A DNA stretch of 64,000 nucleotides from a virus, in the IMG/VR virus record IMGVR_UViG_3300017917_002466, positions 62,001 to 126,000 of that record, one strand, 5' to 3'. The notes beneath the pieces are model-generated. The model was not told the DNA's origin. It did no database searches and saw only the letters and a program-made list of their open reading frames with translations. Every line of letters begins with the position of its first letter. The first letter of the stretch is position 1. This document shows, piece after piece, positions 26,275 through 55,567 of the stretch. A program made the position numbers and the translations under genes.

Positions 26275-26280
26275 AAAAGT

Positions 26281-26460: not shown

Positions 26461-26461
26461 T

Positions 26462-26536: not shown

Positions 26537-26544
26537 AAATTTAT

Positions 26545-26633: not shown

Positions 26634-26641
26634 AGAATTAT

Positions 26642-26716
26642 GCCGCCGTAGCCAAGTAGAAGGTGATGCCTCTGCAAAAGGTAATCTTTGGGGCGCAACT
26701 CCCCACGGTGGCTCCA
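26642..26716 (+). tRNA. tRNA-Cys(GCA)
   Basis: Acceptor GCCGCCG/CGGTGGC, anticodon stem TGCCT/AGGTA with loop CTGCAAA. CCA encoded. Confidence 0.9.
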
Positions 26717-26756
26717 AATTATTTTCACCAATCTGTGATTTTTTATCATCAAAAGA

Positions 26757-26793
26757 TATAAATACCTCTGATGGGTAAACCAAAAGAGGATTT
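26757..26793 (+). promoter_or_regulatory. late promoter and ribosome-site hairpin for the HNH gene
   Basis: TATAAATA at 26757-26764, directly followed by CCTCT (26765-26769), which pairs with AGAGG (26785-26789), the Shine-Dalgarno sequence. The hairpin would mask translation. Confidence 0.7.
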
Positions 26794-27423
26794 ATGGACT
26801 TAGAAAATAAAAGATACCAATATCTAAAAGACTGGAGAAAAAGAACTAAGCAAAGAATGGTTGATGCTTTTGATGGAAAATGTGGAATTTGTGGATATAA
26901 TAAATGTAAAGAAGCATTAGAATTTCATCATATTGATCCAACAAAAAAAGATTTTACTATTTCAAAAAACAAATTTAACAATTGGGAAAAATTAGTTAAA
27001 GAATTAAAAAAATGTATCTGTATTTGTTCAAATTGTCATAAAGAAATTCATAATGAAATAATTAAAATTCCAATTGATGTTAAAAAATTTAATGAAAATT
27101 ATAATGAATATAGAGTAGAAAAAGAAATTAATTATATTGAATGTCCAGTTTGTAAAAAATTAATGGAAGATACACGTAATTATTGTTCGATGGATTGTTT
27201 TAATAAGATTAGAGAAAAAGTAGATTGGAAAATATTTGATTTAAATAAAATGATTTTAACATCATCTATTTTAGAAATTTCTAAAATAGTTGGAGTTTCA
27301 AATACATCTATTCAAAAAAGACTAAAAAAATTAAATCTTCCTTTTAAAAGAAAAGATATTTTAAAATATAAAATGGATGCTGGCGTGGCTGGTAGTGACG
27401 GTTTGTCTGATAAACAAATGTAG
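26794..27423 (+). CDS. HNH homing endonuclease inside the tRNA array
   Basis: 209 aa. HNH core CGICGYNKCKEALEFHHIDP ... CICICSNCHKEIHNEI at the N-terminal half; a further CPVCKK ... YCSMDCF zinc site; a C-terminal helix-turn-helix (SILEISKIVGVSNTSIQKRLKKLNLP). The reading frame runs 49 bases into the tRNA-Ile gene, so the last 16 residues are encoded by tRNA sequence. This overlap suggests the element inserted next to, and may recognise, tRNA-Ile. Confidence 0.87.
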   Translation: MDLENKRYQYLKDWRKRTKQRMVDAFDGKCGICGYNKCKEALEFHHIDPTKKDFTISKNKFNNWEKLVKELKKCICICSNCHKEIHNEIIKIPIDVKKFNENYNEYRVEKEINYIECPVCKKLMEDTRNYCSMDCFNKIREKVDWKIFDLNKMILTSSILEISKIVGVSNTSIQKRLKKLNLPFKRKDILKYKMDAGVAGSDGLSDKQM

Positions 27424-27451
27424 CGAAGTTCGATTCTTCGGGCATCCACCA
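27375..27451 (+). tRNA. tRNA-Ile(GAT)
   Basis: Acceptor GGATGCT/GGCATCC, anticodon stem TTTGT/ACAAA with loop CTGATAA. CCA encoded. Its 5' two thirds overlap the end of the HNH reading frame. Confidence 0.9.
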
Positions 27452-27457
27452 AATTGT

Positions 27458-27540
27458 ACCTTGAGCGTAAAGTCGTACATGGCAGAACTCCGGACTCTGC
27501 TGTTATGTAAAACGTGGTGAAAATCCCATCCAAGGTGCCA
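27458..27540 (+). tRNA. tRNA-Arg(CCG), probable
   Basis: Acceptor ACCTTGA with CCAAGGT (one mismatch), G73, loop CTCCGGA (anticodon CCG) on a stem with one mismatch; the variable region is long. CCA encoded. Confidence 0.6.
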
Positions 27541-27546
27541 AATTAT

Positions 27547-27622
27547 GCCGCTTGAGCAAGTGTGGTCATTGCATCAGTTTGAAGAACTGACTAACACGGT
27601 TCGATTCCGTGGGGCGGCACCA
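27547..27622 (+). tRNA. tRNA-Phe(GAA)
   Basis: Acceptor GCCGCTT/GGGCGGC, anticodon stem TCAGT/ACTGA with loop TTGAAGA. CCA encoded. Confidence 0.92.
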
Positions 27623-27628
27623 AGTTTT

Positions 27629-27636
27629 TATAAATA
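27629..27636 (+). promoter_or_regulatory. late promoter TATAAATA
   Basis: Octamer 94 bases before the ATG of the 27730 gene; an AAGGAG ribosome site with a TTG-started 8-codon frame (MKILKPGT) whose stop overlaps that ATG lies between. Confidence 0.6.
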
Positions 27637-27729
27637 CAAGTAGAAGTTTGGTCCTCAAAAGAAAGATTCAATTTAACCAAAAAGTTACTGAACAAGGAGA
27701 AATCTATTGAAAATACTTAAACCAGGAAC

Positions 27730-27948
27730 ATGAATACAAAAAACCGTTTTGATTTTTTGTTATGTTATTTGGGTAGACACAACTGGAAGAACGAAAGACC
27801 TAAACCTTTATTAACAATGTTCGGTTTAATTATTACATTTGAGAAATATAGATATTGTCAAAGGTGCTTAAAAAGACAAATCTGGGAAGACATTTACGGT
27901 GATTTAAATAAGATTGGAGAATGGATAGACTGTAAAAAGAATTCATAG
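27730..27948 (+). CDS. small Cys-containing protein, DUF1660-like
   Basis: 72 aa. The pattern LCYLGRHNW ... YRYCQRCLKRQIW resembles small phage/prophage proteins with one CxxC pair and conserved LGRH-W. The start may be translationally coupled to the 8-codon frame just upstream. The stop overlaps the next tRNA by two bases. Confidence 0.65.
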   Translation: MNTKNRFDFLLCYLGRHNWKNERPKPLLTMFGLIITFEKYRYCQRCLKRQIWEDIYGDLNKIGEWIDCKKNS

Positions 27949-28020
27949 TGGTGTAGAATAATGTAGTTCCCCTCGTTTTCAGCGAGAAATGTGCGGGTTC
28001 AAGTCTCGTCGCCACTACCA
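27947..28020 (+). tRNA. tRNA-Glu(TTC)
   Basis: Acceptor AGTGGTG/CGCCACT, anticodon stem CTCG/CGAG with loop TTTTCAG. CCA encoded. Confidence 0.82.
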
Positions 28021-28027
28021 AATTTAT

Positions 28028-28103
28028 GCTCCCATCGTCTAACGGTTTAGGATGCCAGATTTTCAATCTGAGAACGTGAGTTCAACTCTCACTGGGAGTA
28101 CCA
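28028..28103 (+). tRNA. tRNA-Glu(TTC), second copy
   Basis: Acceptor GCTCCCA/TGGGAGT, stem CAGA/TCTG with loop TTTTCAA. CCA encoded. Confidence 0.87.
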
Positions 28104-28109
28104 AGTTAT

Positions 28110-28185
28110 GCCGTTCAAGCAATTGAAGTCAATGCGCTTGCCTGAAGAGCAAGATAATCCGGGGCAGTACCGGGGGGCGGCACCA
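28110..28185 (+). tRNA. tRNA-Phe(GAA), second copy
   Basis: Acceptor GCCGTTC/GGGCGGC with two G-T pairs, anticodon stem CTTGC/GCAAG with loop CTGAAGA. CCA encoded. Confidence 0.85.
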
Positions 28186-28186
28186 C

Positions 28187-28221
28187 GGAAAATGCGGGGT
28201 CGAATCCCGTCACCACTACCA
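28187..28221 (+). pseudogene. 3' half of a tRNA
   Basis: T arm GCGGGGTCGAATCCCGT followed by CACCACTACCA, matching the 3' end of the tRNA-Glu at 27947-28020. No 5' half precedes it; a duplication remnant. Confidence 0.65.
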
Positions 28222-28242
28222 AATTACCGAAGGACATAATTT

Positions 28243-28250
28243 TATAAATA
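28243..28250 (+). promoter_or_regulatory. late promoter TATAAATA
   Basis: Octamer only 5 bases before the ATG at 28256. If transcription starts 5-6 bases downstream of the octamer, as in T4, the mRNA would be leaderless. Confidence 0.6.
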
Positions 28251-28255
28251 TAAGT

Positions 28256-28582
28256 ATGAAATGCTTATTTTTACATAAAGGATGTCCATATAATTATAAT
28301 CAACATAACTTACAACATTCTTATGGTTGGATAAGTCCAGATGGTATTTTTTATGGTTGTGAAAAATATGAGCATATAAAAAGATCAGAGTTCTTACTAC
28401 CTAATTATCCAAATTCGGAAGCTAAATTAGAATATGACAGATGGATAAAAGTTTCAGAAGAATTAAATGATAAAATAATATGTTTTGGAAAAGTTACACA
28501 AGCACAAATAGATATATTATCAGATTGGTGTATTGTGCATTGCTTTAAATTTCCACACGAATATATCGATAATTTTCTATAA
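28256..28582 (+). CDS. protein of unknown function
   Basis: 108 aa, Cys- and Trp-containing (CLFLHKGCPYNYN ... HSYGWISPDGIFYGCEKYEH). The G-WI-PDG-FY-C--Y-H pattern is seen in small phage proteins of unknown role. No Shine-Dalgarno sequence; see the adjacent late promoter. Confidence 0.7.
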   Translation: MKCLFLHKGCPYNYNQHNLQHSYGWISPDGIFYGCEKYEHIKRSEFLLPNYPNSEAKLEYDRWIKVSEELNDKIICFGKVTQAQIDILSDWCIVHCFKFPHEYIDNFL

Positions 28583-28635
28583 CATAGTTCATAAATACCA
28601 TTGATGCTATTTACGACATCAACGGGGGAAATAGA

Positions 28636-28815
28636 TTGGAAATTATTTTAGTTTTATCCATAGCAGTATTTTTAGCAAGTGGACTAAGTTTTTATTTTGG
28701 AATGTTGTTTGAAGGATTGAGATGGTCTGAAAAAACAAATATTAACGGAAAAATAATATCTTTTATGGGTAATCAATATAAAGTAACAAAAATACTTTTA
28801 AAACCAAAAGAATAG
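28636..28815 (+). CDS. 59-aa single-pass membrane protein
   Basis: TTG start with GGGGGAAA upstream. Residues 3-25 (ILVLSIAVFLASGLSFYFGMLF) form one membrane helix; the rest is short and basic. A CATAAATA late-promoter variant lies at 28590. Function unknown. Confidence 0.5.
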   Translation: MEIILVLSIAVFLASGLSFYFGMLFEGLRWSEKTNINGKIISFMGNQYKVTKILLKPKE

Positions 28816-28836
28816 GACGATTAAAAATTTTAAAAT

Positions 28837-28912
28837 CGGGATGTGGCGCAGCGAGTAGCGCGCTCGCTTTGGGAGCGAGTGGTCGCCGGGGCGGAGCCGG
28901 CCATCCCGACCA
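28837..28912 (+). tRNA. tRNA-Pro(TGG)
   Basis: Acceptor CGGGATG/CATCCCG, anticodon stem CTCGC/GCGAG with loop TTTGGGA. CCA encoded. Far more GC-rich than its neighbours, suggesting recent capture from a bacterial genome. Confidence 0.95.
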
Positions 28913-28929
28913 AGTTTCAAAAATTCTAA

Positions 28930-28985
28930 AGGATGAGTTCAGCAATCAAAAATTCTTATTAAAAAAGAAAACAAGTTCATCCTGT
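28930..28985 (+). ncRNA. R-element copy R1 (in the tRNA array)
   Basis: Closing stem AGGATGA (28930-28936) with TCATCCT (28977-28983), followed by GTG. Conserved loop block GTTCAGCAATCAAAA just inside the stem, then a short A-rich interior. No coding potential. Confidence 0.7.
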
Positions 28986-28993
28986 GAATCAAT

Positions 28994-29080
28994 GGAAGGT
29001 TAGAGCGTAATTAGTAGCGTGTCGGTCTTGAAAACCGAACCCGAAAGGGCCTGGGGATGCGATTTCCTCACCTTCCGCCA
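28994..29080 (+). tRNA. tRNA-Ser(TGA)
   Basis: Acceptor GGAAGGT/ACCTTCC, G73, anticodon stem TCGGT/ACCGA with loop CTTGAAA, long variable arm. CCA encoded. Confidence 0.93.
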
Positions 29081-29086
29081 ATTTTT

Positions 29087-29161
29087 GGGGGATTAGTTTA
29101 TTCAGGAAAACATAAGCCTTGCAAGCTTAAAAGCCCGGAGCGTAGCCGGGATTCTCCACCA
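29087..29161 (+). tRNA. tRNA-Ala(TGC)
   Basis: Acceptor GGGGGAT/ATTCTCC, anticodon stem TAAGC/GCTTA with loop CTTGCAA, T arm CCCGG/CCGGG. CCA encoded. Confidence 0.88.
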
Positions 29162-29167
29162 AATTAT

Positions 29168-29242
29168 ACCAAGTGGCAGGTCAGCATCTGAGGACGTCTC
29201 ATAAGCGTTCTGAATAGGGGTCAGCACCCTAACTTGGTACCA
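29168..29242 (+). tRNA. tRNA-Met(CAT)
   Basis: Acceptor ACCAAGT/ACTTGGT, anticodon stem GACGT/GCGTT with loop CTCATAA, T arm AGGG/CCCT. CCA encoded and followed at once by an AAAGGAG ribosome site. Confidence 0.87.
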
Positions 29243-29256
29243 AAGGAGTAACTTAT

Positions 29257-29564
29257 ATGCCAAAAGCCACAAAGGAAAATCAACCTTAACAGTTGTAGGT
29301 GAAACTGAAGATGGTAAGAAAGTTGTCAGAGGATTGTTTTTAATAAGCACTTCAATAACTGGATTACCTTTAGAAGATTGCTTAGAAATTTTGAAAAAGA
29401 ATAATCTTGTGGTAGATTGGATAGACTTTATAGAAGATGCTATCAAGTATAAATGGAAGATGGAAAGAACATTGATAAAGATAGAAACATCAGTTGAAGA
29501 AGTTTACGGAAAAGAATATTGTCAAGAAGTAATGAAAAGAATTAAAGGATGGGTTCAGCAATAA
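29257..29564 (+). pseudogene. small gene with an early frameshift
   Basis: AAAGGAG at 29242-29248 points to the ATG at 29257, whose frame stops after 10 codons (MPKATKENQP). The coding-like sequence GKSTLTVVGETEDGKKVVRG... continues in another frame to a stop at 29562, with no in-frame start except a poorly placed TTG at 29334. So the gene is broken early, or the sequence has an indel there. Its last codons contain the 5' part of R-element R2. Function unknown. Confidence 0.55.
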
Positions 29565-29665
29565 AAATCCATTACAAGGCGCGTGTCGGTGGTTCGATTC
29601 CATCCGCTCCCACATTACTGGAGTGTAGCTCAGTTGGTAGAGCAGCAAAAAAAAGTCCATCCTGA
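29546..29665 (+). ncRNA. R-element copy R2 enclosing a permuted tRNA-Val
   Basis: Closing stem AGGATGG (29546-29552) with CCATCCT (29657-29663); loop block GGTTCAGCAATAAAAA. The interior holds a tRNA in reversed half order: a 3' half (29571-29614: anticodon loop ATTACAA, T arm GGTGGTTCGATTCCATC, acceptor CGCTCC) and then a 5' half (29620-29646: GGAGTG acceptor, D arm GCTCAGTTGGTAGAGC). GGAGTG pairs with CGCTCC. Read circularly the body is tRNA-Val(TAC)-like. Confidence 0.7.
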
Positions 29666-29678
29666 ATTTATGTAAAAT

Positions 29679-29757
29679 GCCAAGTTCGCATAGCGGTCGA
29701 TTGCGCCTCTCTTGTAAGGAGGAATTACCGGGGGTTCGACTCCCTCACTTGGCTCCA
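29679..29757 (+). tRNA. tRNA-Thr(TGT)
   Basis: Acceptor GCCAAGT/ACTTGGC, anticodon stem CCTCT/GGAGG with loop CTTGTAA. CCA encoded. Confidence 0.92.
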
Positions 29758-29771
29758 GACTATAAAACAGA

Positions 29772-29832
29772 AGACTGGTTCCAGCAAACCAAAACTATTT
29801 GCTTGTTAAGCAAACAAAGTAATCCAGTCTGA
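29772..29832 (+). ncRNA. R-element copy R8
   Basis: Closing stem AGACTGG (29772-29778) with CCAGTCT (29824-29830); loop block TTCCAGCAAACCAAAA (one extra C). The interior is a hairpin TTTGC-TTGTTAA-GCAAA, which has the 5-bp stem and 7-nt loop of an anticodon arm with GTT at the anticodon position. Confidence 0.65.
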
Positions 29833-29860
29833 GTTTAAATTTTTTAAAAAATAATAAATC

Positions 29861-29950
29861 GGTAAAATGGGCGAGTGGTTTATGCCAGCACACTGCTAAC
29901 GTGCCGGGCCCTAAAAAGCTCCACAGGTTCGAATCCTGTTTTTACCGCCA
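29861..29950 (+). tRNA. tRNA-Ser(GCT)
   Basis: Acceptor GGTAAAA/TTTTACC, G73, loop CTGCTAA, long variable arm. CCA encoded. Confidence 0.9.
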
Positions 29951-29957
29951 AATAAAC

Positions 29958-30034
29958 GCACCCATAGTTCAGATAGCAAGAATACGTTCTTGGTAAGAAT
30001 GAGGCGGTTGGTGCAAGTCCAACTGGGTGCTCCA
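29958..30034 (+). tRNA. tRNA-Thr(GGT)
   Basis: Acceptor GCACCCA/TGGGTGC, anticodon stem CGTTC/GAATG with loop TTGGTAA. CCA encoded. Confidence 0.92.
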
Positions 30035-30037
30035 TAT

Positions 30038-30111
30038 GCCACTATAGCTTAATGTAAAGCCTTCGCCTCGTAAGCGAAAAGATTTCATTTCAAATATGAA
30101 TAGTGGCTCCA
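30038..30111 (+). tRNA. tRNA-Thr(CGT)
   Basis: Acceptor GCCACTA/TAGTGGC, anticodon stem TTCGC/GCGAA with loop CTCGTAA, T arm TTCAT/ATGAA. CCA encoded. Confidence 0.92.
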
Positions 30112-30120
30112 AAGATAAAT

Positions 30121-30199
30121 ACCTGTGTATCTCACCAGTCTTCTAAACTGTGTAAGAGTAATTGGATTAATGTGGGTTCAAGTCCCATCACAGGTTCCA
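30121..30199 (+). tRNA. tRNA-Arg(TCT) lacking a normal D arm
   Basis: Acceptor ACCTGTG/CACAGGT and T arm TGTGGGTTCAAGTCCCATC are sound. The anticodon arm CCAGT-CTTCTAA-ACTGT begins only 7 bases after the acceptor, leaving no D arm, while about 22 bases separate it from the T arm. Total length is normal. Either a rearranged or defective tRNA. Confidence 0.6.
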
Positions 30200-30227
30200 C
30201 CTGACAATCAAGGAGAAATATCATATA

Positions 30228-30431
30228 ATGAAACGTAGAGATTTTCTAGGATTTACAATAGCATCCTTACTCTTAGTAGGATGTGCAGCTAGCCCAAATA
30301 TTATATATTATGTTGAGTCAGAGAAAGAAGTTGAATCGATGAGAAAACGATTAGAAGAAAGGGGTGAAAAAGTAGTTGATGTGAAGTTTGATAAAATAAG
30401 TAATTTGTATATCATTAAAATTAAAAAATAA
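30228..30431 (+). CDS. small lipoprotein
   Basis: 67 aa. Signal peptide MKRRDFLGFTIASLLLVGC with lipobox LVGC (Cys19 lipidated), leaving a 48-residue periplasmic or surface part with a short beta-like end. In phages, small lipoproteins of this kind often change the host surface (for example superinfection exclusion); here that is inference. AAGGAG upstream. Sits within the tRNA array. Confidence 0.7.
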   Translation: MKRRDFLGFTIASLLLVGCAASPNIIYYVESEKEVESMRKRLEERGEKVVDVKFDKISNLYIIKIKK

Positions 30432-30445
30432 TTTAAGAAAGAAAA

Positions 30446-30922
30446 ATGAATAAGCAAAATACTAATAAACTTATAAAAAAACATAGATATATGTTTGATG
30501 AATTATTCAGAAGCCGATTAATCAAAAAAGAACAAGATAGATTGGCAGATGAATTTTCAGAAGCTAAAATTGAAGACGATGAAATAAAAATTGCTCAAAT
30601 AATGGAAGAACAAAGACAAGTTGGTTCTTATTATCCAATAGCCTTTGGTTTTGAATGTGGTGATGGATGGTATAAACTTCTTGATGATTTAATGACAGAA
30701 ATTGAAAAAATAGATACAGAAAAGAAGGTTGAAGTTCATCAAGTAAAAGAAAAATCTGGTGGATTAAGATTTTATGCCGAGAATACTTCAAATGAAATAG
30801 AAGATATTATCAGCCGATATATGGATAGATCATATCAAACTTGTGAAATTTGTGGGCAACCAGGAAAAACAAACAAAAAAGGATGGTTGAGAACGGCTTG
30901 TAAGGAACACGAAAGAAATTAA
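30446..30922 (+). CDS. conserved phage protein of unknown function
   Basis: 158 aa. Pattern FGFECGDGWYKLLDDL ... VHQVKEKSGGLRFY ... CEICGQPGKT ... WLRTACKEH is shared by a family of phage proteins with a C-terminal zinc site. Role unknown. 14 bases after the lipoprotein. Confidence 0.75.
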   Translation: MNKQNTNKLIKKHRYMFDELFRSRLIKKEQDRLADEFSEAKIEDDEIKIAQIMEEQRQVGSYYPIAFGFECGDGWYKLLDDLMTEIEKIDTEKKVEVHQVKEKSGGLRFYAENTSNEIEDIISRYMDRSYQTCEICGQPGKTNKKGWLRTACKEHERN

Positions 30923-30930
30923 GAGATTAA

Positions 30931-31016
30931 GCGGTCGTGGAGGAATGGCAGACTCACAAGGCTAAGAACCTTGTGGAAGAAATTCCGTGAGGGTTCAACT
31001 CCCTCCGACCGCACCA
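30931..31016 (+). tRNA. tRNA-Leu(AAG)
   Basis: Acceptor GCGGTCG/CGACCGC, anticodon stem CAAGG/CCTTG with loop CTAAGAA, long variable arm. CCA encoded. A34 in a Leu tRNA is uncommon and would need conversion to inosine for wide decoding. Confidence 0.9.
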
Positions 31017-31105
31017 AATAAAAATATCAAAGAAGCTTTGGAAAAATTAAAACTTACATATAATGGTGGAAATTTCGTAAGAGCAAAGAAAATATTAAAT
31101 GATAT

Positions 31106-31182
31106 GCTGGGGTAGCCCAATTGGTAGAGGCGATTTGTTTAGAGCGAATATGTTGTGGGTTCGAATCCCATCTCCAGTACCA
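31106..31182 (+). tRNA. tRNA with TAG anticodon (Leu CTA) but a short variable arm
   Basis: Acceptor GCTGGGG/CTCCAGT, anticodon stem ATTTG/CGAAT with loop TTTAGAG (anticodon TAG), variable region only 5 nt (ATGTT). Leu tRNAs normally have a long arm. CCA encoded. Confidence 0.78.
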
Positions 31183-31190
31183 AGATTTAA

Positions 31191-31265
31191 GCAGTGTTGG
31201 CCTAATAGTTGGGCGCTAGCCTTCCAAGCTGGTTCAAGTGGGAGCGTTACCCACACACTGCTCCA
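31191..31265 (+). tRNA. tRNA-Gly(TCC), second copy
   Basis: Acceptor GCAGTGT/ACACTGC, anticodon stem CTAGC/GCTGG with loop CTTCCAA, T arm GTGGG/CCCAC. CCA encoded. Confidence 0.9.
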
Positions 31266-31272
31266 AGTTTAT

Positions 31273-31366
31273 GCTAAGATGGTGGAATGGAAAGACACGG
31301 TAGCTTCAGAAGCTACTGAGAACCTTGCTAGTTCTCGTGTAGGTTCGAATCCTGCTCTTAGCACCA
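31273..31366 (+). tRNA. tRNA-Leu(CAG)
   Basis: Acceptor GCTAAGA/TCTTAGC, anticodon stem GTAGC/GCTAC with loop TTCAGAA, long variable arm. CCA encoded. Confidence 0.93.
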
Positions 31367-31374
31367 GAAATTAA

Positions 31375-31449
31375 GCTCTTGTAGTGTAACGTATAGCACG
31401 AGTCGCGTCGAACGATTTAGTGAGGGTTAGATTCCTTCCAAGAGCGCCA
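31375..31449 (+). tRNA. tRNA-Arg(TCG)
   Basis: Acceptor GCTCTTG/CAAGAGC, stem AGTCG/CGATT with loop CGTCGAA. Position 33 is G rather than T. CCA encoded. Confidence 0.75.
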
Positions 31450-31453
31450 ATAC

Positions 31454-31525
31454 ACTTCCTTAGTGAAAAGGAAATAATATTACCCTACGAAGGTAAAGTT
31501 GATGGTTCAAATCCATCAGGAAGTA
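31454..31525 (+). tRNA. tRNA-Arg(ACG)
   Basis: Acceptor ACTTCCT/AGGAAGT, anticodon stem TTACC/GGTAA with loop CTACGAA. No CCA encoded (ends AGTATA). A34 is normal for this bacterial isoacceptor. Confidence 0.83.
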
Positions 31526-31529
31526 TATT

Positions 31530-31667
31530 TTTATAATGTAACTCTCTATGACAATTAGCACAAACAAGAATACATTTATCTAGTTCTTTTTGAAAAATAT
31601 CCCAAATTCTATATTTGGCCTTTGAAAGAGAGAATTCTTTTTTATTCTGGTCTAAAAGGTGTACCAA
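31530..31667 (-). pseudogene. remnant of an HNH endonuclease
   Basis: Minus-strand frame reading EFSLSKAKYRIWDIFQKELDKCILVCANCHRELHYKN, the C-terminal end of an HNH domain (CILVCANCHRELH). The rest of the gene is missing and the frame runs on into tRNA antisense sequence. An old endonuclease insertion that was deleted. Confidence 0.6.
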
Positions 31668-31684
31668 AAAATTATGGAGAAATT

Positions 31685-32074
31685 ATGAATAAATTTAAAA
31701 GTGTAGTTATTAGATCAGCAGAAAATAATATTCACAATAAACAACTAAGAAAAAGAGTTGAATATAGTCTTTCCGCTGACTTTGAATATATACCCAGAGA
31801 AATTGTTGTTTTGATAATTGTCAATGGTAAATATTATTTGAAAAGTAAAAAGGGTGATTATGTAGATGATAAAACTAAAGTTAATGTAGATGCTTTGATT
31901 TATAATAATATTTACTATGCTTATATTTTGGAAAAGCAAAAAAATAAATCAATTACTTTTAAAAAAAAAGAAGACGTTAAAGACAAGAATAAGTATAAAA
32001 ATAAAAATGCCATCGCATTGATTCCTAAAAAATGGATTGAAGATGGAACTATTGTTCTTGATAAAAAAGTATGA
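31685..32074 (+). CDS. protein of unknown function
   Basis: 129 aa from the ATG at 31685, which has TGGAGAA upstream; a longer frame to 31622 lacks a ribosome site and overlaps the HNH remnant. Lysine-rich C-terminal half. No family recognised. Confidence 0.65.
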   Translation: MNKFKSVVIRSAENNIHNKQLRKRVEYSLSADFEYIPREIVVLIIVNGKYYLKSKKGDYVDDKTKVNVDALIYNNIYYAYILEKQKNKSITFKKKEDVKDKNKYKNKNAIALIPKKWIEDGTIVLDKKV

Positions 32075-32075
32075 T

Positions 32076-32149
32076 GCTCCTATCAGCTAACGGTAGGCTT
32101 CCAAACCTTCAATCTGAGAATTAAGTTTCAACTTCCCATAGGAGTACCA
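32076..32149 (+). pseudogene. degenerate tRNA-Glu
   Basis: The acceptor GCTCCTA/TAGGAGT is intact and the sequence parallels the tRNA-Glu at 28028, but the anticodon stem (CCAAA against TCTGA) and T stem no longer pair well. CCA encoded. Probably inactive. Confidence 0.55.
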
Positions 32150-32156
32150 AGTTTAT

Positions 32157-32233
32157 GCGCCTGTAATTCAGTAGAATAGAATAATGGTTTTCTAAACCAT
32201 AAGTCACAGGTTTGAATCCTGTCAGGCGTACCA
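32157..32233 (+). tRNA. tRNA-Arg(TCT), second copy
   Basis: Acceptor GCGCCTG/CAGGCGT, anticodon stem ATGGT/ACCAT with loop TTTCTAA. CCA encoded. Well formed, unlike the copy at 30121. Confidence 0.9.
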
Positions 32234-32241
32234 AATAACAT

Positions 32242-32316
32242 ACAGCTATAGTACAATGGATAGTGCACTAGTTTCCTAAACCTGAAATTCTGGTTCGATT
32301 CCAGATAGCTGTACCA
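32242..32316 (+). tRNA. tRNA-Arg(CCT)
   Basis: Acceptor ACAGCTA/TAGCTGT, loop TTCCTAA (anticodon CCT); two mismatches in the anticodon stem. CCA encoded. Confidence 0.75.
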
Positions 32317-32337
32317 AATTTTATCTCTTTTTATCAT

Positions 32338-32422
32338 AGGAGCCAAGGCAACTGGTTGTGGCCGCCAGTCTTATAAGCTGGGAAACTAAACGAGGTGGGT
32401 TCAATTCCCACGGCTCCTACCA
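32338..32422 (+). tRNA. tRNA-Ile(TAT) with an extended variable region
   Basis: Acceptor AGGAGCC/GGCTCCT, anticodon stem CCAGT/GCTGG with loop CTTATAA; 13-nt variable region. CCA encoded. Confidence 0.85.
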
Positions 32423-32426
32423 AAAA

Positions 32427-32434
32427 TATAAATA
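32427..32434 (+). promoter_or_regulatory. late promoter TATAAATA
   Basis: Octamer 26 bases before the ATG at 32460, with GGAGGGTGA between them. Confidence 0.65.
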
Positions 32435-32459
32435 TTTTCAAATATACAATGGAGGGTGA

Positions 32460-32669
32460 ATGGCACACATCTGCGAATTTTTTCCTTGTCATAAACTAAT
32501 TGATGGGTTTAATTGTAAAAATTGTTATTGCCCACTTTATGACCATACCGATTGTCAACATTTTGGTGGGGAACCTAAATTTCTTTACTCAAAAGGGGAG
32601 AAAATAAAAGACTGTTCAGATTGTATTCTCCCTCATAAGCCAGACTTTAAAATACAAACAAGATATTGA
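32460..32669 (+). CDS. cysteine-rich small domain protein
   Basis: 69 aa with ten Cys. The pattern CEFFPCHK ... [12 protein letters not shown] ... [11 protein letters not shown] matches the Cys-rich small domain family (FFPCH, NC-CYCPLY, K-CS-C--PH). Function of the family is unknown; it probably binds metal. Late promoter and strong Shine-Dalgarno sequence upstream. Confidence 0.82.
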
Positions 32670-32694
32670 CATTTTACAAGGATGATATTATATT
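32666..32694 (+). promoter_or_regulatory. sigma70-type promoter inside the tRNA array
   Basis: TTGACA 32666-32671, 17-bp spacer, TATATT 32689-32694; the next tRNA starts 9 bases later. Confidence 0.8.
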
Positions 32695-32702
32695 AATAAT
32701 AT

Positions 32703-32778
32703 GCCTGTTTCTTCTAGTGGTATAGGAAGTTTGCCTTACAAGCAGAAAACGATGGTTCGATTCCATCAATAGGCACCA
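32703..32778 (+). tRNA. tRNA-Val(TAC)
   Basis: Acceptor GCCTGTT/AATAGGC, anticodon stem TTTGC/GCAGA with loop CTTACAA. CCA encoded. An intact Val(TAC), so the permuted one at 29546 is not the only source. Confidence 0.9.
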
Positions 32779-32785
32779 AATATTT

Positions 32786-32856
32786 ACTCGTTTAGTTCAA
32801 CGGAAGAATATCTGTTTGACGTACAGAAGACAATAGTTCAACTCTATTAACGAGTA
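32786..32856 (+). tRNA. tRNA-Val(GAC)
   Basis: Acceptor ACTCGTT/AACGAGT, anticodon stem TCTGT/ACAGA with loop TTGACGT. No CCA encoded. Confidence 0.85.
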
Positions 32857-32917
32857 TAAAAACAAATTATGATTCGTTAAATTATGGTAATGGACAAAAA
32901 ACTAAACATAAAAATAA

Positions 32918-32991
32918 GCGGAAGTAGTTCAACGGTAGAATGCGACTTTGCCAAGGTTGAGACAGGAGTTCAACTCTCCTTTTCCGCACCA
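32918..32991 (+). tRNA. tRNA-Gly(GCC)
   Basis: Acceptor GCGGAAG/TTTCCGC, anticodon stem CGACT/GGTTG with loop TTGCCAA. CCA encoded. Confidence 0.88.
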
Positions 32992-32997
32992 AATTAC

Positions 32998-33074
32998 TGG
33001 GGTGTTGCCTAATGGATCAAGGCGCGGGTCTTTGAAGCCTGTCCGTGAAGGTTCAATTCCTTCCACCCCAACCA
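32998..33074 (+). tRNA. tRNA-Gln(TTG)
   Basis: Acceptor TGGGGTG/CACCCCA, anticodon stem CGGGT/GCCTG with loop CTTTGAA. CCA encoded. Confidence 0.92.
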
Positions 33075-33130
33075 GATAAACATAAATATTAATATAGGAT
33101 TTGATTTTGAACATTTTAAAGGAGGTTTGT

Positions 33131-33433
33131 ATGAAGATGGTTCCGTTGTACAATAAGTTGATTGTTGAACTTCTTCCCGAAGAGTCCGAAAAGAGATCAG
33201 CAACAGGTTTAATTCTTCCGGGAAAAATTTCTCCGTATTACAGGGGAAAGGTGACTGGTGTTGGTAAAGGTCATTATCAAAATGCTCAAAGAATTCCAAT
33301 GGATGTTAAGGAAGGAGATATTGTAGTCTTCTTAAAGAACTGTGGAATGGGAATTGAGTTTGATAACGGAAATAACCCAACAAAGCTTATTTTGGATGAT
33401 ACAAATATTTACGCAGTAGAGGAAAACGACTAA
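33131..33433 (+). CDS. groES: GroES-like co-chaperonin
   Basis: 100 aa. Cpn10 family: N-terminal VPLYNKLIVELLPEE, mobile-loop region around ATGLILPGK, then GKVTGVGKG and VKEGDIVVFLKNCGMGIE, ending in the final beta strand. T4 encodes a functional analogue (gp31) for folding the capsid protein. The ATG at 33131 has AAAGGAGG upstream. Its position inside the tRNA array is notable. Confidence 0.87.
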   Translation: MKMVPLYNKLIVELLPEESEKRSATGLILPGKISPYYRGKVTGVGKGHYQNAQRIPMDVKEGDIVVFLKNCGMGIEFDNGNNPTKLILDDTNIYAVEEND

Positions 33434-33488
33434 ATTGTCACAGCCAAACTGGGAATTTTAGATCAAAAATAAAAAAATTGTATATAAA

Positions 33489-33573
33489 TGCTCTGGTGGT
33501 GGAATTGGTATACACATCACGCTTAAGACGTGATGCCCGTAAGGGATTGGGGGTTCAACTCCCCCCCAGAGTA
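33489..33573 (+). tRNA. tRNA-Leu(TAA)
   Basis: Acceptor GCTCTGG/CCAGAGT, anticodon stem TCACG/CGTGA with loop CTTAAGA, long variable arm. 3' end reads ACTA. Confidence 0.9.
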
Positions 33574-33583
33574 CTAAATTAAT

Positions 33584-33663
33584 GCTCCGGTAGCCCAACT
33601 TTGGTAGAGGCCGTAAGCTCAAACCTTACGTTAGTGTGGGTCCGAATCCCATCCGGAGTACCA
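33584..33663 (+). tRNA. tRNA-Leu(CAA) with a short variable arm
   Basis: Acceptor GCTCCGG/CCGGAGT, anticodon stem GTAAG/CTTAC with loop CTCAAAC. The body resembles the TAG-anticodon tRNA at 31106, including the short variable region. CCA encoded. Last tRNA of the array. Confidence 0.83.
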
Positions 33664-42513: not shown

Positions 42514-43986
42514 ATGGCTAAGACTCGCACGAACGAAGGCGCAATTCAGTACGACCACTCTCTCGACCACGCAGTTGAGTTCTTCTCAAAGGCCGGTTCA
42601 ATTTATTCCAAGAAGGCAAAGGGCAAGCGCCCATTCTACGGCAACGAGCAGTCCGCTCTTGAGCTTTTCAAGGCCGTCTGGTGCTCAGGTAACCACGAAA
42701 TGGCTATGAAGCTTATGTTCTGGCTTCGTGACTGCCGTGGTGGAGCAGGAAACCGTTCCGCTTTCCGTGATTGTTTGAAGTGGGTTACTGAGACTGACCC
42801 GCGCTGGGTTAAGGCCAACATTGGTCTTGTTCCTGAGCTTGGTCGTTGGGACGACCTTCGTGTTCTTAACGGAACTGATGCTGAGGCCGTTGCGACTAAG
42901 ATTTGGGCTGAGGCAGTTGCCAAGAAGGACGGTCTTGCCTGTAAGTGGGCTGACCGTTCAGACACCAACATTCTTCGTGAGCTTCGTAAGGCGAAGATTG
43001 TCAAGGACATTGGCGAATTCCGTCGTCTTCTTGCGGCTGGCCGTAAGAACATTGTTGAGCGTGCAATGTGTTCAGACCGTTGGAACGAGATTGAGTATCC
43101 TCACGTTCCTTCTGTTGCAATGAGCCGTTACACCAAGGCTTTCAACAAGCACGACGAAGCCCGCTTCTCCAAGTTCAAGGAGAAGGTTCAGAAGGGTGAG
43201 GCTAAGATCAATGCAAGCGTATTGTTCCCTCACGACCTTGTTCGTACCTTGAAGGCTGATGGAGACTGTGAGATTGCAGATGCACAGTTCAATGCAATGC
43301 CAAACTGGGTCGGTGATAGCAAGCTTCGTATCATCACTCTTTGTGACTCTTCGGGTTCAATGGGTTGTGATATTGGTGGAAGCGTACAGGCAATTGATGT
43401 TTCAACTTCATTGTCATTGTACTGCTCAGACCGTATTCCAAAGGATTCTCCGTTCCACCGTAAGTTCATCCAGTTTGAGTCTGAGTCCAAGTTGACTGAC
43501 TGGGCTGGTATGACTTTCTCCGAGGCTTATGGCTACGGTAAGAAGGTAACTTCTCGTCGTCGTGGATTCGGATATGGTCAGGGAATCTTTGATGGTGCTT
43601 GTGGTGGTACTCGTATTGACACTGCACTTGATATGTTGCTCAACCACGCCAAGATGTTCAAGGCTACGAATGAGCAGGTTCCGAATATGATTCTTATTAT
43701 CTCTGATATGCAGTTCCACGGCGTACCAGATGGAACCAACGGCAAGACTGTTGTTGAGCATTGCCTTGAGAAGTGGGAAAAGGCCGGATACACTCGTCCA
43801 AAGATTGTTTACTGGAACCTTTCTGGTTATGCCGGTTCACCAGCAACAGTCACTCACAAGGACGTTGGTATGGTTTCTGGATTCTCTCCGAGCATCCTTG
43901 AAGCCATTATGAAGGCCGAAGACTTCACTCCAATGGGTATTATGCTCAAGAAACTTGAGAAGTACAAGGTTGCTATCCCCCAGTAA
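42514..43986 (+). CDS. Ro60/TROVE-like (DUF2828) protein with a vWA domain
   Basis: 490 aa. The N-terminal two thirds are alpha-helical with the DUF2828/TROVE-type block LMFWLRDCRGGAGNRSAFRDCLKW ... LVPELGRWDDL, the region that forms the RNA-binding ring in Ro proteins. The C-terminal third is a von Willebrand A domain with MIDAS motif DSSGSMG near residue 278 and ISDMQF near residue 395. Ro proteins bind misfolded RNAs and Y RNAs, often with a nuclease. Directly preceded by six R-elements. Its GC content and codon use are clearly higher than in neighbouring genes. AGGAGG upstream; strong terminator downstream. Confidence 0.82.
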   Translation: MAKTRTNEGAIQYDHSLDHAVEFFSKAGSIYSKKAKGKRPFYGNEQSALELFKAVWCSGNHEMAMKLMFWLRDCRGGAGNRSAFRDCLKWVTETDPRWVKANIGLVPELGRWDDLRVLNGTDAEAVATKIWAEAVAKKDGLACKWADRSDTNILRELRKAKIVKDIGEFRRLLAAGRKNIVERAMCSDRWNEIEYPHVPSVAMSRYTKAFNKHDEARFSKFKEKVQKGEAKINASVLFPHDLVRTLKADGDCEIADAQFNAMPNWVGDSKLRIITLCDSSGSMGCDIGGSVQAIDVSTSLSLYCSDRIPKDSPFHRKFIQFESESKLTDWAGMTFSEAYGYGKKVTSRRRGFGYGQGIFDGACGGTRIDTALDMLLNHAKMFKATNEQVPNMILIISDMQFHGVPDGTNGKTVVEHCLEKWEKAGYTRPKIVYWNLSGYAGSPATVTHKDVGMVSGFSPSILEAIMKAEDFTPMGIMLKKLEKYKVAIPQ

Positions 43987-46205: not shown

Positions 46206-46280
46206 ACGCCTGTAGCAGGGATCGAACCCGCGCAGACAGAAATTTAGAGTTTCCCGCTCTAGCCGCTGAGCTATACAGGC
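46206..46280 (-). tRNA. amber suppressor-type tRNA (anticodon CTA)
   Basis: Minus strand. Acceptor GCCTGTA/TACAGGC, D arm GCTC/GAGC, anticodon stem GGAAA/TTTCT with loop CTCTAAA, so anticodon CTA at positions 34-36, reading UAG. T arm GCGGGTTCGATCCCTGC, G73; no CCA encoded. All arms are intact. The amino acid cannot be read from sequence; G73 would allow Gln. It lies apart from the main array, at the 3' end of the leftward operon. Confidence 0.87.
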
Positions 46281-46284
46281 TTTT

Positions 46285-46614
46285 TTATTTCGTTGCTAAA
46301 GAAAGACCTCTCAAATAATTTCTATATCCATTCTTTCCATCGTCAAAAAGACAGATAGCCGTTGGCAAAGTACTTTGAAGATCAGGCTCATAAAACACTG
46401 AGCATGTCACCTTACCATTGATGGAAATAAGAAGGTCATTTAATGCTAACCCATTAAAGACAGAAAGACAGATAAGGTATCCGTTATTCCATTGCCTAAA
46501 CAGGTCAGGATGCTCTAAGGCAAAGGAGGCCAATGAATGACCTCCCTGAATATACTTGAAACTAAGGTCTTCTCGAAGAATAATATACATTCTGGGATCA
46601 AGAGGCAAGCTCAT
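46285..46614 (-). CDS. PTH2-like peptidyl-tRNA hydrolase (tentative)
   Basis: 109 aa from the ATG at 46614, which has AGGAGG 7 bases upstream; a longer frame lacks such a site. The pattern RMYIILREDLSFKYIQGGHSLASFALEHPD ... GYLICLSVF ... TCSVFYEPDLQSTLPTAICLF resembles the PTH2 fold (beta-strand, G--A--A-HA helix, E-----TA). PTH2 enzymes release peptides from stalled peptidyl-tRNA. It lies next to the suppressor tRNA, which fits a tRNA-related role. Confidence 0.5.
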   Translation of the reverse strand: MSLPLDPRMYIILREDLSFKYIQGGHSLASFALEHPDLFRQWNNGYLICLSVFNGLALNDLLISINGKVTCSVFYEPDLQSTLPTAICLFDDGKNGYRNYLRGLSLATK

Positions 46615-46945
46615 CTTGGAGCCTCCTGATATAAGCCCAATCAAGCGAATTATTCTCTCTAACCTTTCTTTCAATTTGTTCATAACTTCTACCTTTCATT
46701 AAAGCATATATAATGAGTTTATGTCTGGCTTGAAACTTTAGTTCTTTTCTTTTAGACTCTAAGTTCCAAAGATTTTGCCATTCTCCATTAGGTTTACCCC
46801 AACAGTAGCAAATATTCTTTTTACTGATTTCAGACTGTTGTTCTTTGTATTGATGCTTTGAAGACTTTATCTCTTTTGCGAGAGACTTAAGCTCATTTTT
46901 GAGAGCTATATACTTTTCTTTGCTGATTACTATTGTAGTTTCCAT
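46598..46945 (-). CDS. protein of unknown function
   Basis: 115 aa. N-terminal coiled coil (YIALKNELKSLAKEIK), a YCWGKPNGEWQNLW block, basic C-terminus. AAGGAG upstream. Overlaps the PTH2-like gene by 17 bases. Confidence 0.68.
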   Translation of the reverse strand: METTIVISKEKYIALKNELKSLAKEIKSSKHQYKEQQSEISKKNICYCWGKPNGEWQNLWNLESKRKELKFQARHKLIIYALMKGRSYEQIERKVRENNSLDWAYIRRLQDELAS

Positions 46946-47407: not shown

Positions 47408-48115
47408 TTAATTATAAAGATTATAAGATTTTAATAAGTCTCTAAAATATTTTCTACATTTATTATATTTTTTAGAAAGATAAGAAATTAATCCTCTTTT
47501 ATTACCAAAGATTTTGATTTCGGATTTTAACCATTCTTTTTCTTTATATTCAATTTCTTTTTGACTTAAAAGTTTATCAGAGATTTCTTTTGACAAGTTA
47601 TAAGCTTTTTTACGCCCAATTTTTAATTTTGTACAAATATAATAAATAGAAAATCCCTGATTATAAAAGTTAATAAATTTTTTAATAACATCTTCATCTA
47701 TATTTTTATATTTTCCATTTTTATTTCCTAAATGATTTTTTCTATTTATTTCTGATTTTCCAGCAATTCTTAACTTTTCTAAAGTTTCTTTTTTATAAAT
47801 TCCTACTTTACCTTTATTCCACGGATTTGTACCTTGTCTAAAATTACCGTTTCCAAAAGTACAAATATTATAACCAATATTTGGATTTGTAGCACTTAAT
47901 TGATTTATCCAATAAGTTTCTCTTTCGTTTACGTCAGCAGAAGTACAAAATTCAATTGTCGTCCTTTGAAATTTTTCTTTACCATATTTCTTTAATGCTT
48001 TTTGAAAAACTTTACCAGAACCTAAATAACCATCATCTGCTGATGTATAATGTTGTCCAATATAAATTTTTAAGTTCTCTAAACATAAAGTTTCGTAGAT
48101 AATATAAGTACTCAT
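47408..48115 (-). CDS. GIY-YIG homing endonuclease
   Basis: 235 aa. N-terminal GIY-YIG domain KIYIGQHYTSADDGYLGSG nearly identical to the genes at 4787 and 7688; C-terminal helix-turn-helix (GFSIYYICTKLKIGRKKAYNL). ATG follows GGAGG at the end of leader L4. Inserted downstream of RtcB in the leftward block. Confidence 0.9.
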   Translation of the reverse strand: MSTYIIYETLCLENLKIYIGQHYTSADDGYLGSGKVFQKALKKYGKEKFQRTTIEFCTSADVNERETYWINQLSATNPNIGYNICTFGNGNFRQGTNPWNKGKVGIYKKETLEKLRIAGKSEINRKNHLGNKNGKYKNIDEDVIKKFINFYNQGFSIYYICTKLKIGRKKAYNLSKEISDKLLSQKEIEYKEKEWLKSEIKIFGNKRGLISYLSKKYNKCRKYFRDLLKSYNLYN

Positions 48116-48221: not shown

Positions 48222-49535
48222 TTAATCCCTATCATAACCATCACCAGCCTTCATATTCAGAATTGGTATAATTCTGTTTATGATTTTAGCTGTTGGCTCA
48301 ATAGCTTTTTCAATTATTTCTGGATTTTTATAAGCTAAAGGAGACTCGTCTTTTGGTTTTTGTGATGCGTAAACTCCTTTCATAGCTTCGTTAGCCATTT
48401 CATCAGTAATAGTTTTTTTAGCTTGCGATCTTGACATTAGTCTTCCAAATCCGTGCGGAGCCGAGCAATTCCATTCAGTATTTGATTTCCCCTCACAAAT
48501 TAAAGAACCAAAAGAAGGACTTCCGGGAATAATCATTCTCTCACCCTTATAAGAACGGATAGAACCCTTACGGATAATGAAGTCACGGAAGTCAATAAAG
48601 TTATGGACAGTCTCAATCCTGTCAATCTCGTTGACTCCAAGAATCTTCAAAATGGCTGAGGCGATATAAGCCCTATTGACTTCCGCATACTTCTGTGCGA
48701 AAATCATATCATACAAGTATCCGTTTGCATTCTCACCCTCTAGGTACTGAAGCTCGTCGGAAACAATAGCATCCAAACCAAGCTCAGCACGAGCCTTCTT
48801 GATTTGAGCCTTGATTTCCATACCAGTATAGGTCTTACGGATTTCATCAATACGAGACTTCAACAAATCCTGCTTATCCTTACGGACAACAGAAGAAGCC
48901 ATATTCTGCCAATAGTCACATACACACTTTCCAAAGTTACGAGAACCAGTGTGAATTACAATCCAATAGTTACCATTGTCGTCCTTTCCAATTTCAATGA
49001 AGTGGTTACCCCCACCAAGCGAACCAAGTGACTTAACAGCACGACCAAGGTTAGCACCAATGTCATTGCACTTCTGAACGAACCAACGATAGTCATATCC
49101 ATCAAAGTACGAGTTGGTTCCAAACTTCTGATTGTAGGCCAATGAGAAGTTATGAGCCAATCCACGAACTTCGCGGTATGGGAAATCCCTTTCCATATTG
49201 AGAACGGACTTATCGTGAGTCTCAATACCAAAAGGAACTGACTGACGAATCTTGTGGTCAAGCTGTTCCAAAGCGATAGGAAGGTTCTGGCCGATGTTGA
49301 TTGCCAACATTCCACAGCCAATATCCACAGAAACAACGGCGGGAATTATCTTCTCTGACATTTCCATTGTAAATCCAATACAGCTAGACTTACCAGAATG
49401 ACAGTCAGGCATAATAGCAATAGGATTAGTAAAAGCAGGATGATTAGACATTTGAGTAATTTGAGCAACACAAGACTCCTCAACATTGTCAATCATTACT
49501 TTAGCCTTCGTATACTTACCAACAATCTCAAACAT
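48222..49535 (-). CDS. rtcB: RtcB-like RNA ligase
   Basis: 437 aa from an ATG 6 bases after GGAGG. RtcB joins 2',3'-cyclic phosphate or 3'-phosphate ends to 5'-OH ends, in tRNA splicing and RNA repair, using GTP and Mn. Signature motifs: IMPDCHSGK near residue 42, VDIGCGM near 70, SLGGGNHFIEI near 165 and a C-terminal CSAPHGFGRLMSR containing the guanylylated-His region. In Enterobacteria rtcB shares an operon with rsr (Ro) and Y RNAs; this phage also encodes a Ro-like protein, 5 kb away. Confidence 0.93.
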   Translation of the reverse strand: MFEIVGKYTKAKVMIDNVEESCVAQITQMSNHPAFTNPIAIMPDCHSGKSSCIGFTMEMSEKIIPAVVSVDIGCGMLAINIGQNLPIALEQLDHKIRQSVPFGIETHDKSVLNMERDFPYREVRGLAHNFSLAYNQKFGTNSYFDGYDYRWFVQKCNDIGANLGRAVKSLGSLGGGNHFIEIGKDDNGNYWIVIHTGSRNFGKCVCDYWQNMASSVVRKDKQDLLKSRIDEIRKTYTGMEIKAQIKKARAELGLDAIVSDELQYLEGENANGYLYDMIFAQKYAEVNRAYIASAILKILGVNEIDRIETVHNFIDFRDFIIRKGSIRSYKGERMIIPGSPSFGSLICEGKSNTEWNCSAPHGFGRLMSRSQAKKTITDEMANEAMKGVYASQKPKDESPLAYKNPEIIEKAIEPTAKIINRIIPILNMKAGDGYDRD

Positions 49536-49548
49536 TACCATCCTCCAA

Positions 49549-53916: not shown

Positions 53917-54533
53917 ATGCAAACTTCCTCAGTAGTAAATTTGATATTCTTTATTCGGGTTTGGACTTTACCCATTACGATTGTCTTTTGAATTTTACCA
54001 ATTAAATTATTTGGAGCAAACAACTGAATACCTGTACTAGTTACACAATTATTGCGCCAATTTGCAGACTTCAAAATGCCACAATTGACAGAATAGAAAA
54101 ATCCTTTTATCAACCCACGATTTCTTGAACGATTTGAAATCACTCTATCATTATCAAGCTTATAACCAACTAAAATATAATTGCCACATTTCTTATAAGG
54201 ATTTTTAATCGTTGTTCCAGTTCCACAAAATACAAGACTCTTTTGCTTATTTTCTTTAGTGGTCTTCATTTCAAAACGGGTTCCGTCAATAAGAAAGTCA
54301 GCATCATGCTCTTGAATAATCTGACAAGGAATCTTTCTACTCTTGCAGACTTTAAAGAAAACCATTTCAAAGAAGTTTCCAACTCCAGAATGATTCTTTT
54401 GAAAAGCCTCTCCAACATCATACCCCATACTACTTGACCAGTACAAGGGAATGTGGGATTCTTTTTGAAATGTATTAACCAGTTCTTCTGCAAAACTACG
54501 ACTTGTAATTTGATTGAAATATCTTTTTCTCAC
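53913..54533 (-). CDS. PD-(D/E)XK nuclease-like protein
   Basis: 206 aa. FFEMVFFKVC ... QEHDADFLIDGTRFEMKTT: Glu, then Asp and ExK spaced as in type II restriction enzymes. ATGA overlaps with genes on both sides. It could be a restriction-like nuclease paired with the operon's methyltransferase, or a host-DNA-degrading enzyme; sequence alone cannot tell. Confidence 0.62.
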   Translation of the reverse strand: MRKRYFNQITSRSFAEELVNTFQKESHIPLYWSSSMGYDVGEAFQKNHSGVGNFFEMVFFKVCKSRKIPCQIIQEHDADFLIDGTRFEMKTTKENKQKSLVFCGTGTTIKNPYKKCGNYILVGYKLDNDRVISNRSRNRGLIKGFFYSVNCGILKSANWRNNCVTSTGIQLFAPNNLIGKIQKTIVMGKVQTRIKNIKFTTEEVCI

Positions 54534-55567
54534 TTGAACTCGGTGCCTCCTTTACGAGTAAGATACTGGTCAAAAACATATTTGAGTATAACTCTTCCAA
54601 CTTTAGCATCAAATCTTTCAAGTACTGGTTTGATAACAACACCTTCCATAATGTTGTCTGCACCGGCAATCTGAGATTTACTATTGCTAAATTTCATAAC
54701 TTCAGACATAGAAAAAGGACCACGATAAAGAACTGGTACAACATCAACATTGAAGCGACCACAAGTTCCAATCATTGCAGGATAGTCCATATACTTTGCA
54801 CCAACACGAATATCAAAGCAACGATAACCAAAATCTCCCTGTTTGAATCCATAATGCAAGTCCTGAATCCAACCAAAGATTTCACCAAACATAATGACCG
54901 GCAAGTTCCCATTTTCATTGGAAACAGTTTTGACAAGCTCTTTCATATTATCACTAAAAACACTCCACCAACGGCTCTGAGCATTTTCTTTCTTCCTCAT
55001 AGTATGAGAACCAACCATAAACTCGCCACCAATATAAGCACATCTATGATTCGCTCCGTGGAGCTTCTCAGTCATAACAACATCCTCACCTTCAAGAATG
55101 ATGTTAGGAAAATTCCTCATATTCTGAATGTCGGTGTACTTCTCCAATAGAACGTGAGGTCTTTCGGCATCTTCATTGTTGAAGATAGGCGGTGGTTCCC
55201 ACTTAGTAACTCCAAATCCTTCTGTCAGGTCAGTACCTTCACCAAAGTTCCTCTTGTCAAAAGGAGGCGGGTAGATATAGTCTTCTCCCTTATCCTTATT
55301 CCAAAGTAGCCCATAAGATGGCTCACCACGAAGCTTAGCAGCACAAACCCTTCCATTATGAAGATATTTGGTTACTCCAATAGCTTCAGAAAGCCTTTCG
55401 GGAAGAACCGAATCAAGAGGAAAGTAAACAACAAGTTCGCCGGCTTTGAATTCGCCTTTACGAACTACAGTCTGCCATCCTTTGACAATAGCAAGTTCAA
55501 GAGCATCAGCATTTGGATGCACTTTGATTTCATCAATCTTTACAACTTCAACCTTTAGTTCAGACAT
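54530..55567 (-). CDS. DraRnl/Rnl5-type RNA ligase
   Basis: 345 aa. An N-terminal OB-like domain (residues 1-130: IKVHPNADALELAIVKGWQTVV; LVVYFPLDSVLPE) is followed by a nucleotidyltransferase domain with motif I TEKLHGANHR near residue 168 (nucleotidyl-Lys), motif IV EGVVIKP and motif V LKYVF. This domain order is that of Deinococcus RNA ligase. Such ligases seal 3'-OH/5'-phosphate nicks, complementary to RtcB chemistry. Confidence 0.87.
   Translation of the reverse strand: MSELKVEVVKIDEIKVHPNADALELAIVKGWQTVVRKGEFKAGELVVYFPLDSVLPERLSEAIGVTKYLHNGRVCAAKLRGEPSYGLLWNKDKGEDYIYPPPFDKRNFGEGTDLTEGFGVTKWEPPPIFNNEDAERPHVLLEKYTDIQNMRNFPNIILEGEDVVMTEKLHGANHRCAYIGGEFMVGSHTMRKKENAQSRWWSVFSDNMKELVKTVSNENGNLPVIMFGEIFGWIQDLHYGFKQGDFGYRCFDIRVGAKYMDYPAMIGTCGRFNVDVVPVLYRGPFSMSEVMKFSNSKSQIAGADNIMEGVVIKPVLERFDAKVGRVILKYVFDQYLTRKGGTEFK

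Follow-up and report, generated by a model that had tools for sequence, protein, structure and literature searches.

The window analysed here, 64,000 nucleotides long, spans bases 62001-126000 in a virus record of 253,664 bp that was itself analysed in full. The genes and features considered are the following.

25395-33663, plus strand: tRNA array, 35 ARAGORN tRNAs and further Rfam tRNA matches
46207-46280, minus strand: tRNA(CUA) gene found by ARAGORN, anticodon CTA, reads UAG
46285-46683, minus strand: predicted divergent PTH2-type peptidyl-tRNA hydrolase, a 132-aa ORF recognised by phrog_1866, profile and fold
46598-46945, minus strand: 115-aa coiled-coil-like ORF that overlaps the beginning of the PTH2 ORF; first gene of a conserved cassette
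48222-49541, minus strand: RtcB RNA ligase (PF01139, 7e-59)
54530-55567, minus strand: RNA ligase with an RNA_ligase domain (PF09414, 2e-22)

A first-pass annotation had described an intact amber suppressor-type tRNA on the minus strand, outside the array. ARAGORN and Rfam both recover this gene, with its start at 46207 rather than 46206. It scores 55.8 bits against Rfam RF00005 (E 9.1e-10), well above the curated cut-off of 29, and is among the top third of the 34 tRNAs detected there. As read from the sequence, the acceptor stem has 7 bp (GCCTGTA/TACAGGC), the D stem 4 bp, and the anticodon and T stems 5 bp each; the D loop is 8 nt long, the variable loop 6 nt, and the T loop is TTCGATC. The CUA triplet lies within a 7-nt anticodon loop, CUCUAAA, with U33 and A37 present, which is the anatomy of an amber suppressor. 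Position 73 is a G, compatible with Gln-type charging, CCA is not encoded, and a T-rich run lies 3' of the gene. The gene stands alone, 12.5 kb from the array, and is the single CTA tRNA among the 36 ARAGORN tRNAs of the whole record. Three Rfam matches (25571-25641, 26037-26109 and 30121-30196) are absent from the ARAGORN list. ARAGORN calls the gene tRNA-Pyl, but this is only its name for CUA and the identity was rejected: the anticodon is common to both, whereas pylT has a 6-bp anticodon stem, a minimal D loop and a 3-nt variable loop, against 5 bp, 8 nt and 6 nt here. A consensus tRNA pattern searched across IMG/VR gave no match.

The conserved partner of this tRNA, absent from the earlier annotation, is the PTH2 gene immediately upstream, whose stop codon is 4 nt from the tRNA start. 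The ORF matches phrog_1866 (8.6e-6), a family that also takes the canonical PTH2s of XacN1 and Atu_ph07 (6.8e-37 and 4.2e-37). The gathering score of PF01981 (23 bits) is not reached: the window protein has no match and two orthologues score 15.7 and 17.0, while homologues in LR756501, LR756500 and LR756502 exceed it (31.9, 30.0 and 26.3 bits). Because the Pfam cut-off was missed, the ORF was named PTH2-like from its fold and phrog_1866. A profile of its own subfamily (A6) matched PDB structures of PTH2 at 5e-4 and 1e-3, and at 7e-21 once two canonical rows were included. An AlphaFold2 model, built from window and fetched-locus proteins only, had a pLDDT of 84.7, and Foldseek ranks 1-15 contained nothing but PTH2-type structures, the best E being 3.8e-6, before a drop to 0.33 at the next match. 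On this modelling the ORF is a divergent PTH2, with predicted hydrolase activity. Its modelled fold is that of PTH2 (PF01981, phrog_1866) and it keeps the conserved columns Q, H and T, but it belongs to a divergent subfamily with an EPDL motif, in which the canonical lysine and D-x-G-x-T are not universal. An internal ATG (46612-46614, MSLPLDPRMY) is its more conserved start. The record also holds a canonical PTH2 outside the window (173727-173942), which is whole in a related phage, G001 (120536-120958); since the record's own copy retains only about 69 codons, the divergent PTH2 is the only complete one seen there.

The ORF at 46598-46945 had no confident Pfam or PHROG match. A possible homology with the ORF upstream of PTH2 in Lak phages was unsupported (hhalign probability 10%). 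The RtcB gene lies 1.3 kb upstream of the cassette on the same strand, and a homing-endonuclease-like gene (phrog_314, 47408-48115) is found between them. RtcB and the RNA ligase, both RNA-repair genes, are on the cassette strand, and the phage has a large tRNA array. Elsewhere in the window, a DUF2828/DUF7788 protein (42514-43986) carries a von Willebrand-like DSSGSM motif and is GC-richer than its surroundings; a stretch of about 940 bases lacking any clear ORF precedes it, and Rfam gave no family there in a search for a neighbouring Y RNA.

The first-pass annotation had suggested that UAG recoding, if real, would concern late genes outside the window, and that the rest of the genome should be scanned for in-frame TAG. 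Over the whole record, greedy ORF coverage went from 0.885 with code 11 to 0.895 once TAG was read as sense; TGA or TAA readthrough gave 0.901 and 0.912, no less than TAG as sense. The collapse of coding density under code 11, with recovery when TAG is sense, that marks code 15 was not seen. TAG works as an ordinary stop: of the 261 ORFs that reach 100 aa, 22 are terminated by it. Outside the window the large gene blocks, late ones among them, stay open when read with code 11. Extensions on either side of in-frame stops were set against the ORFs of G001, G002 (a second related phage) and LR745206: no segment behind a TAG aligned as an orthologue's continuation, in agreement with the earlier remark that several genes end in TAG without useful extension. 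No conserved readthrough of other genes was found in G000-G002, nor any UAG target in this phage, whose PTH2 has no TAG. The record uses the standard code. CUA tRNAs do recode late genes in Lak and crAss-like phages (PMC8346664), but the whole-record ORF comparison, in which no orthologue alignment crosses a TAG, refutes such recoding for the 253,664 bases of the record, and we consider the idea that this tRNA serves late structural genes outside the window in the manner of code-15 phages to have almost no chance of being right.

Only two close relatives of the PTH2 ORF were found in IMG/VR, in G001 (L013, 264 kb) and G002 (L014, 224 kb), with PTH2 proteins 62% and 57% identical to that of the window. 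The order ORF-PTH2-tRNA(CUA) is common to both, the CTA tRNA lying at most about 10 nt behind PTH2, and orthologues of the front ORF (56% and 31%) lie directly upstream of PTH2. As both relatives have the same pair and the same front ORF, the cassette has been conserved through considerable protein divergence, and that the tRNA(CUA) keeps its place in both of these diverged relatives puts it beyond chance. The standard code applies in all three phages, which carry 27-48 tRNAs with a single CTA tRNA apiece; the G002 tRNA is irregular (C33, U73). At a further locus (L029), the frame of a PTH2 homologue (5001-5493) is apparently broken by one extra base, and a tRNA-Glu occupies the place of the tRNA(CUA) behind it.

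Two distant phages, LR756501 (735,411 bp) and LR756500 (462,018 bp, of which 460,000 were analysed), were found via PTH2 protein homology alone, and therefore count as replicates. Both use the standard code (coverage 0.933 versus 0.934 with TAG as sense, and 0.902 versus 0.901, respectively), as does LR745206 genome-wide. In both, every tRNA(CUA) gene is less than 2.2 kb from PTH2: the two CTA tRNAs of LR756501 lie 2.05 and 2.13 kb behind it on the same strand, with the next tRNA 320 kb off, and the sole CTA tRNA of LR756500 lies 776 nt behind it, again on the same strand. In all five genomes with the pair, the CUA tRNA is the nearest tRNA to PTH2, that is, it ranks 1 of 36, 48, 27 and 26, and 1 and 2 of 59 in LR756501. 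If tRNA positions are exchangeable, the chance of the linkage in LR756501 and LR756500 is 1/1711 x 1/26, or about 2e-5. In all Lak-type loci examined, a UUA tRNA is the sole tRNA near PTH2, about 600 nt in front of it on the same strand, and this tRNA, 78% identical to that of the window, is its best match among the 124 tRNAs compared. Stop-anticodon tRNAs are thus linked with this PTH2 subfamily. The linkage is not universal, as the two CUA tRNAs of XacN1 are far from its canonical PTH2. XacN1 and Atu_ph07 were set aside as further cases, their annotated PTH2s (XacN1 ORF295 and one of two in Atu_ph07) being canonical and open. Discriminator bases vary among the phage stop-anticodon tRNAs; judging from these differences and the C33/U73 of G002, some of the linked tRNAs may be separate in origin, and their charging is uncertain.

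In five huge phages, LR745206, LR756504, LR756502 (these three 634-642 kb), LR756500 and LR756501, the PTH2 gene itself carries a TAG in frame shortly behind its ATG (TAG in brackets below).

LR745206, 338158-338511: MNN(TAG)I
LR756504: MT(TAG)I
LR756502: MKN(TAG)I
LR756500: MK(TAG)I
LR756501: MS(TAG)I

The codon directly after this TAG is always ATT (Ile). The first three homologues, with the TAG at codon 3-4, are found around position 8000 of L021, L023 and L025, respectively. In LR756501, a second TAG lies within the domain (...AQEFP(TAG)IYEQW...), and a Pfam genome search independently gave this PTH2 domain over the cut-off with one TAG inside. A Shine-Dalgarno-like AAGGAG is placed 9 nt before the LR756501 ATG, and none of the TAG-bearing PTH2 genes has another usual start codon before the domain. 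All six in-frame PTH2 stops are TAG, though TAG makes up only about 14% of the stops upstream of ORFs. As no start codon can bypass the mid-domain TAG of LR756501, either the UAG is decoded or the gene is dead, and apart from its in-frame TAGs the gene has no defect. Despite its PTH2 TAG, LR745206 has no CUA tRNA over its entire length, and pattern and partial scans of LR756504 and LR756502 found none either. For the LR745206 gene, an AUU start and readthrough are equally likely.

Start-proximal TAG is slightly enriched more broadly (53/477 compared to 174/2747, p 2.6e-4), but a broad use of such TAGs was rejected, nearly all cases having an ordinary start a few codons later. Two further instances were seen behind PTH2 genes. 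In LR745206, a second gene 0.7 kb behind PTH2 (L021:8992-9582) starts ATG AAT ACT TAG ATT, with an ordinary ATG ten codons after this TAG-bearing start; in LR756500, around 111483 (L057, reverse strand), a frame of about 15 codons begins ATG AAA TAG ATT and resembles the PTH2 start. RF-1 domain proteins of 174-180 codons, ArfB- or PrfH-like in size, were seen in LR756501 (358528-358854), LR745206 (48139-48459), LR756504 (568928-569242) and LR756502 (107309-107629); none was found in G000-G002 or LR756500.

Several explanations other than a coupled function were weighed. The start-proximal TAGs may not be read at all, translation beginning at the AUU after the TAG, as in infC, with ATG-x-TAG acting as a regulatory minigene. 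The invariable Ile codon fits this, as does the motif that LR745206 retains without a CUA tRNA, and two-codon minigenes are known to provoke peptidyl-tRNA drop-off. Yet the AAGGAG of LR756501 is spaced for the ATG, and its mid-domain TAG is beyond the reach of any alternative start; we regard this explanation as possible but doubtful. Somewhat less probable is that the suppressor works but neighbours PTH2 merely within a block of translation genes that moved together. Jumbo phages carry many such genes, L029 has a tRNA-Glu in the same position, and XacN1 lacks the linkage. Against this, the genomes have 26-59 tRNAs each, yet the one adjoining PTH2 reads a stop, even as the anticodon changes between CUA and UUA, and PTH2 itself bears TAGs.

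The tRNA could instead counter host defence: alongside RtcB and the RNA ligase, it would replace tRNAs that anticodon nucleases have cleaved, or act as a decoy for them; the large tRNA set and both repair enzymes of the window would suit such a role. A CUA anticodon substitutes for no host tRNA, however, and the conserved neighbour is PTH2 rather than a ligase, which makes this improbable. A functionless, neutral anticodon mutant of an ordinary tRNA is more improbable still: no UAG target is known here and the G002 copy is irregular, but position and anticodon are kept in three phages whose neighbouring proteins are only about 60% identical.

We lean, by a modest degree, towards a conserved two-gene module in which a functional amber-suppressor tRNA and a divergent PTH2 couple readthrough to peptidyl-tRNA recycling. 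Decoding of UAG is likely; the coupling itself we infer. The tRNA(CUA) would be charged by a host synthetase and would compete with RF1 at UAG. The outcome would be extended proteins, ribosomes that run on, and peptidyl-tRNA that drops off and is recycled by PTH2. The tRNA and the hydrolase would be made together because the latter would recycle the peptidyl-tRNA released by this competition. In the window phage, the coupling would be by co-transcription, given the 4 nt between the two genes; in LR756501 and LR756500, amber gating would take its place, so that full-length PTH2 appears only while the suppressor tRNA is active. More tentatively, the suppressor tRNA could be a regulator, UAG-gated PTH2 being translated only if the tRNA(CUA) or tRNA(UUA) beats the release factor. 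This would form a feedback circuit between readthrough and recycling, of which the window operon would be the co-transcribed version. Amber gating of PTH2, if true, would add a new mode of phage gene control. The literature found on jumbo-phage suppressor tRNAs makes no mention of a PTH2 connection, and the conserved pair suggests that these 'purposeless' tRNAs have a function not described before.

Known systems resemble this locus in part. With the code-15 Lak and crAss-like phages, the window phage shares a phage-encoded CUA tRNA, but it uses the standard code, without genome-wide or late-gene TAG recoding. With Lak phages it also shares a PTH2 of the same subfamily next to a tRNA that has a stop anticodon. 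In 51 of 51 Lak genomes there is a TAA-type suppressor tRNA without TAA recoding (PMC8346664), and like the window tRNA it reads a stop that is not recoded, is of similar sequence and lies near PTH2; it differs in its UUA anticodon, in its place upstream of PTH2 and in belonging to a TAG-recoded phage. XacN1 is, like the window phage, a standard-code jumbo phage with a large tRNA set, and no target for its tandem tRNA-Sup(CUA) genes was found among 18 amber-ending genes (PMC5852040); unlike those of the window, they are unlinked to PTH2, and the XacN1 PTH2 is canonical and without TAG. For such orphan suppressor tRNAs, in XacN1 (PMC5852040) as in Lak phages (PMC8346664), the link to PTH2 provides a concrete and testable partner.
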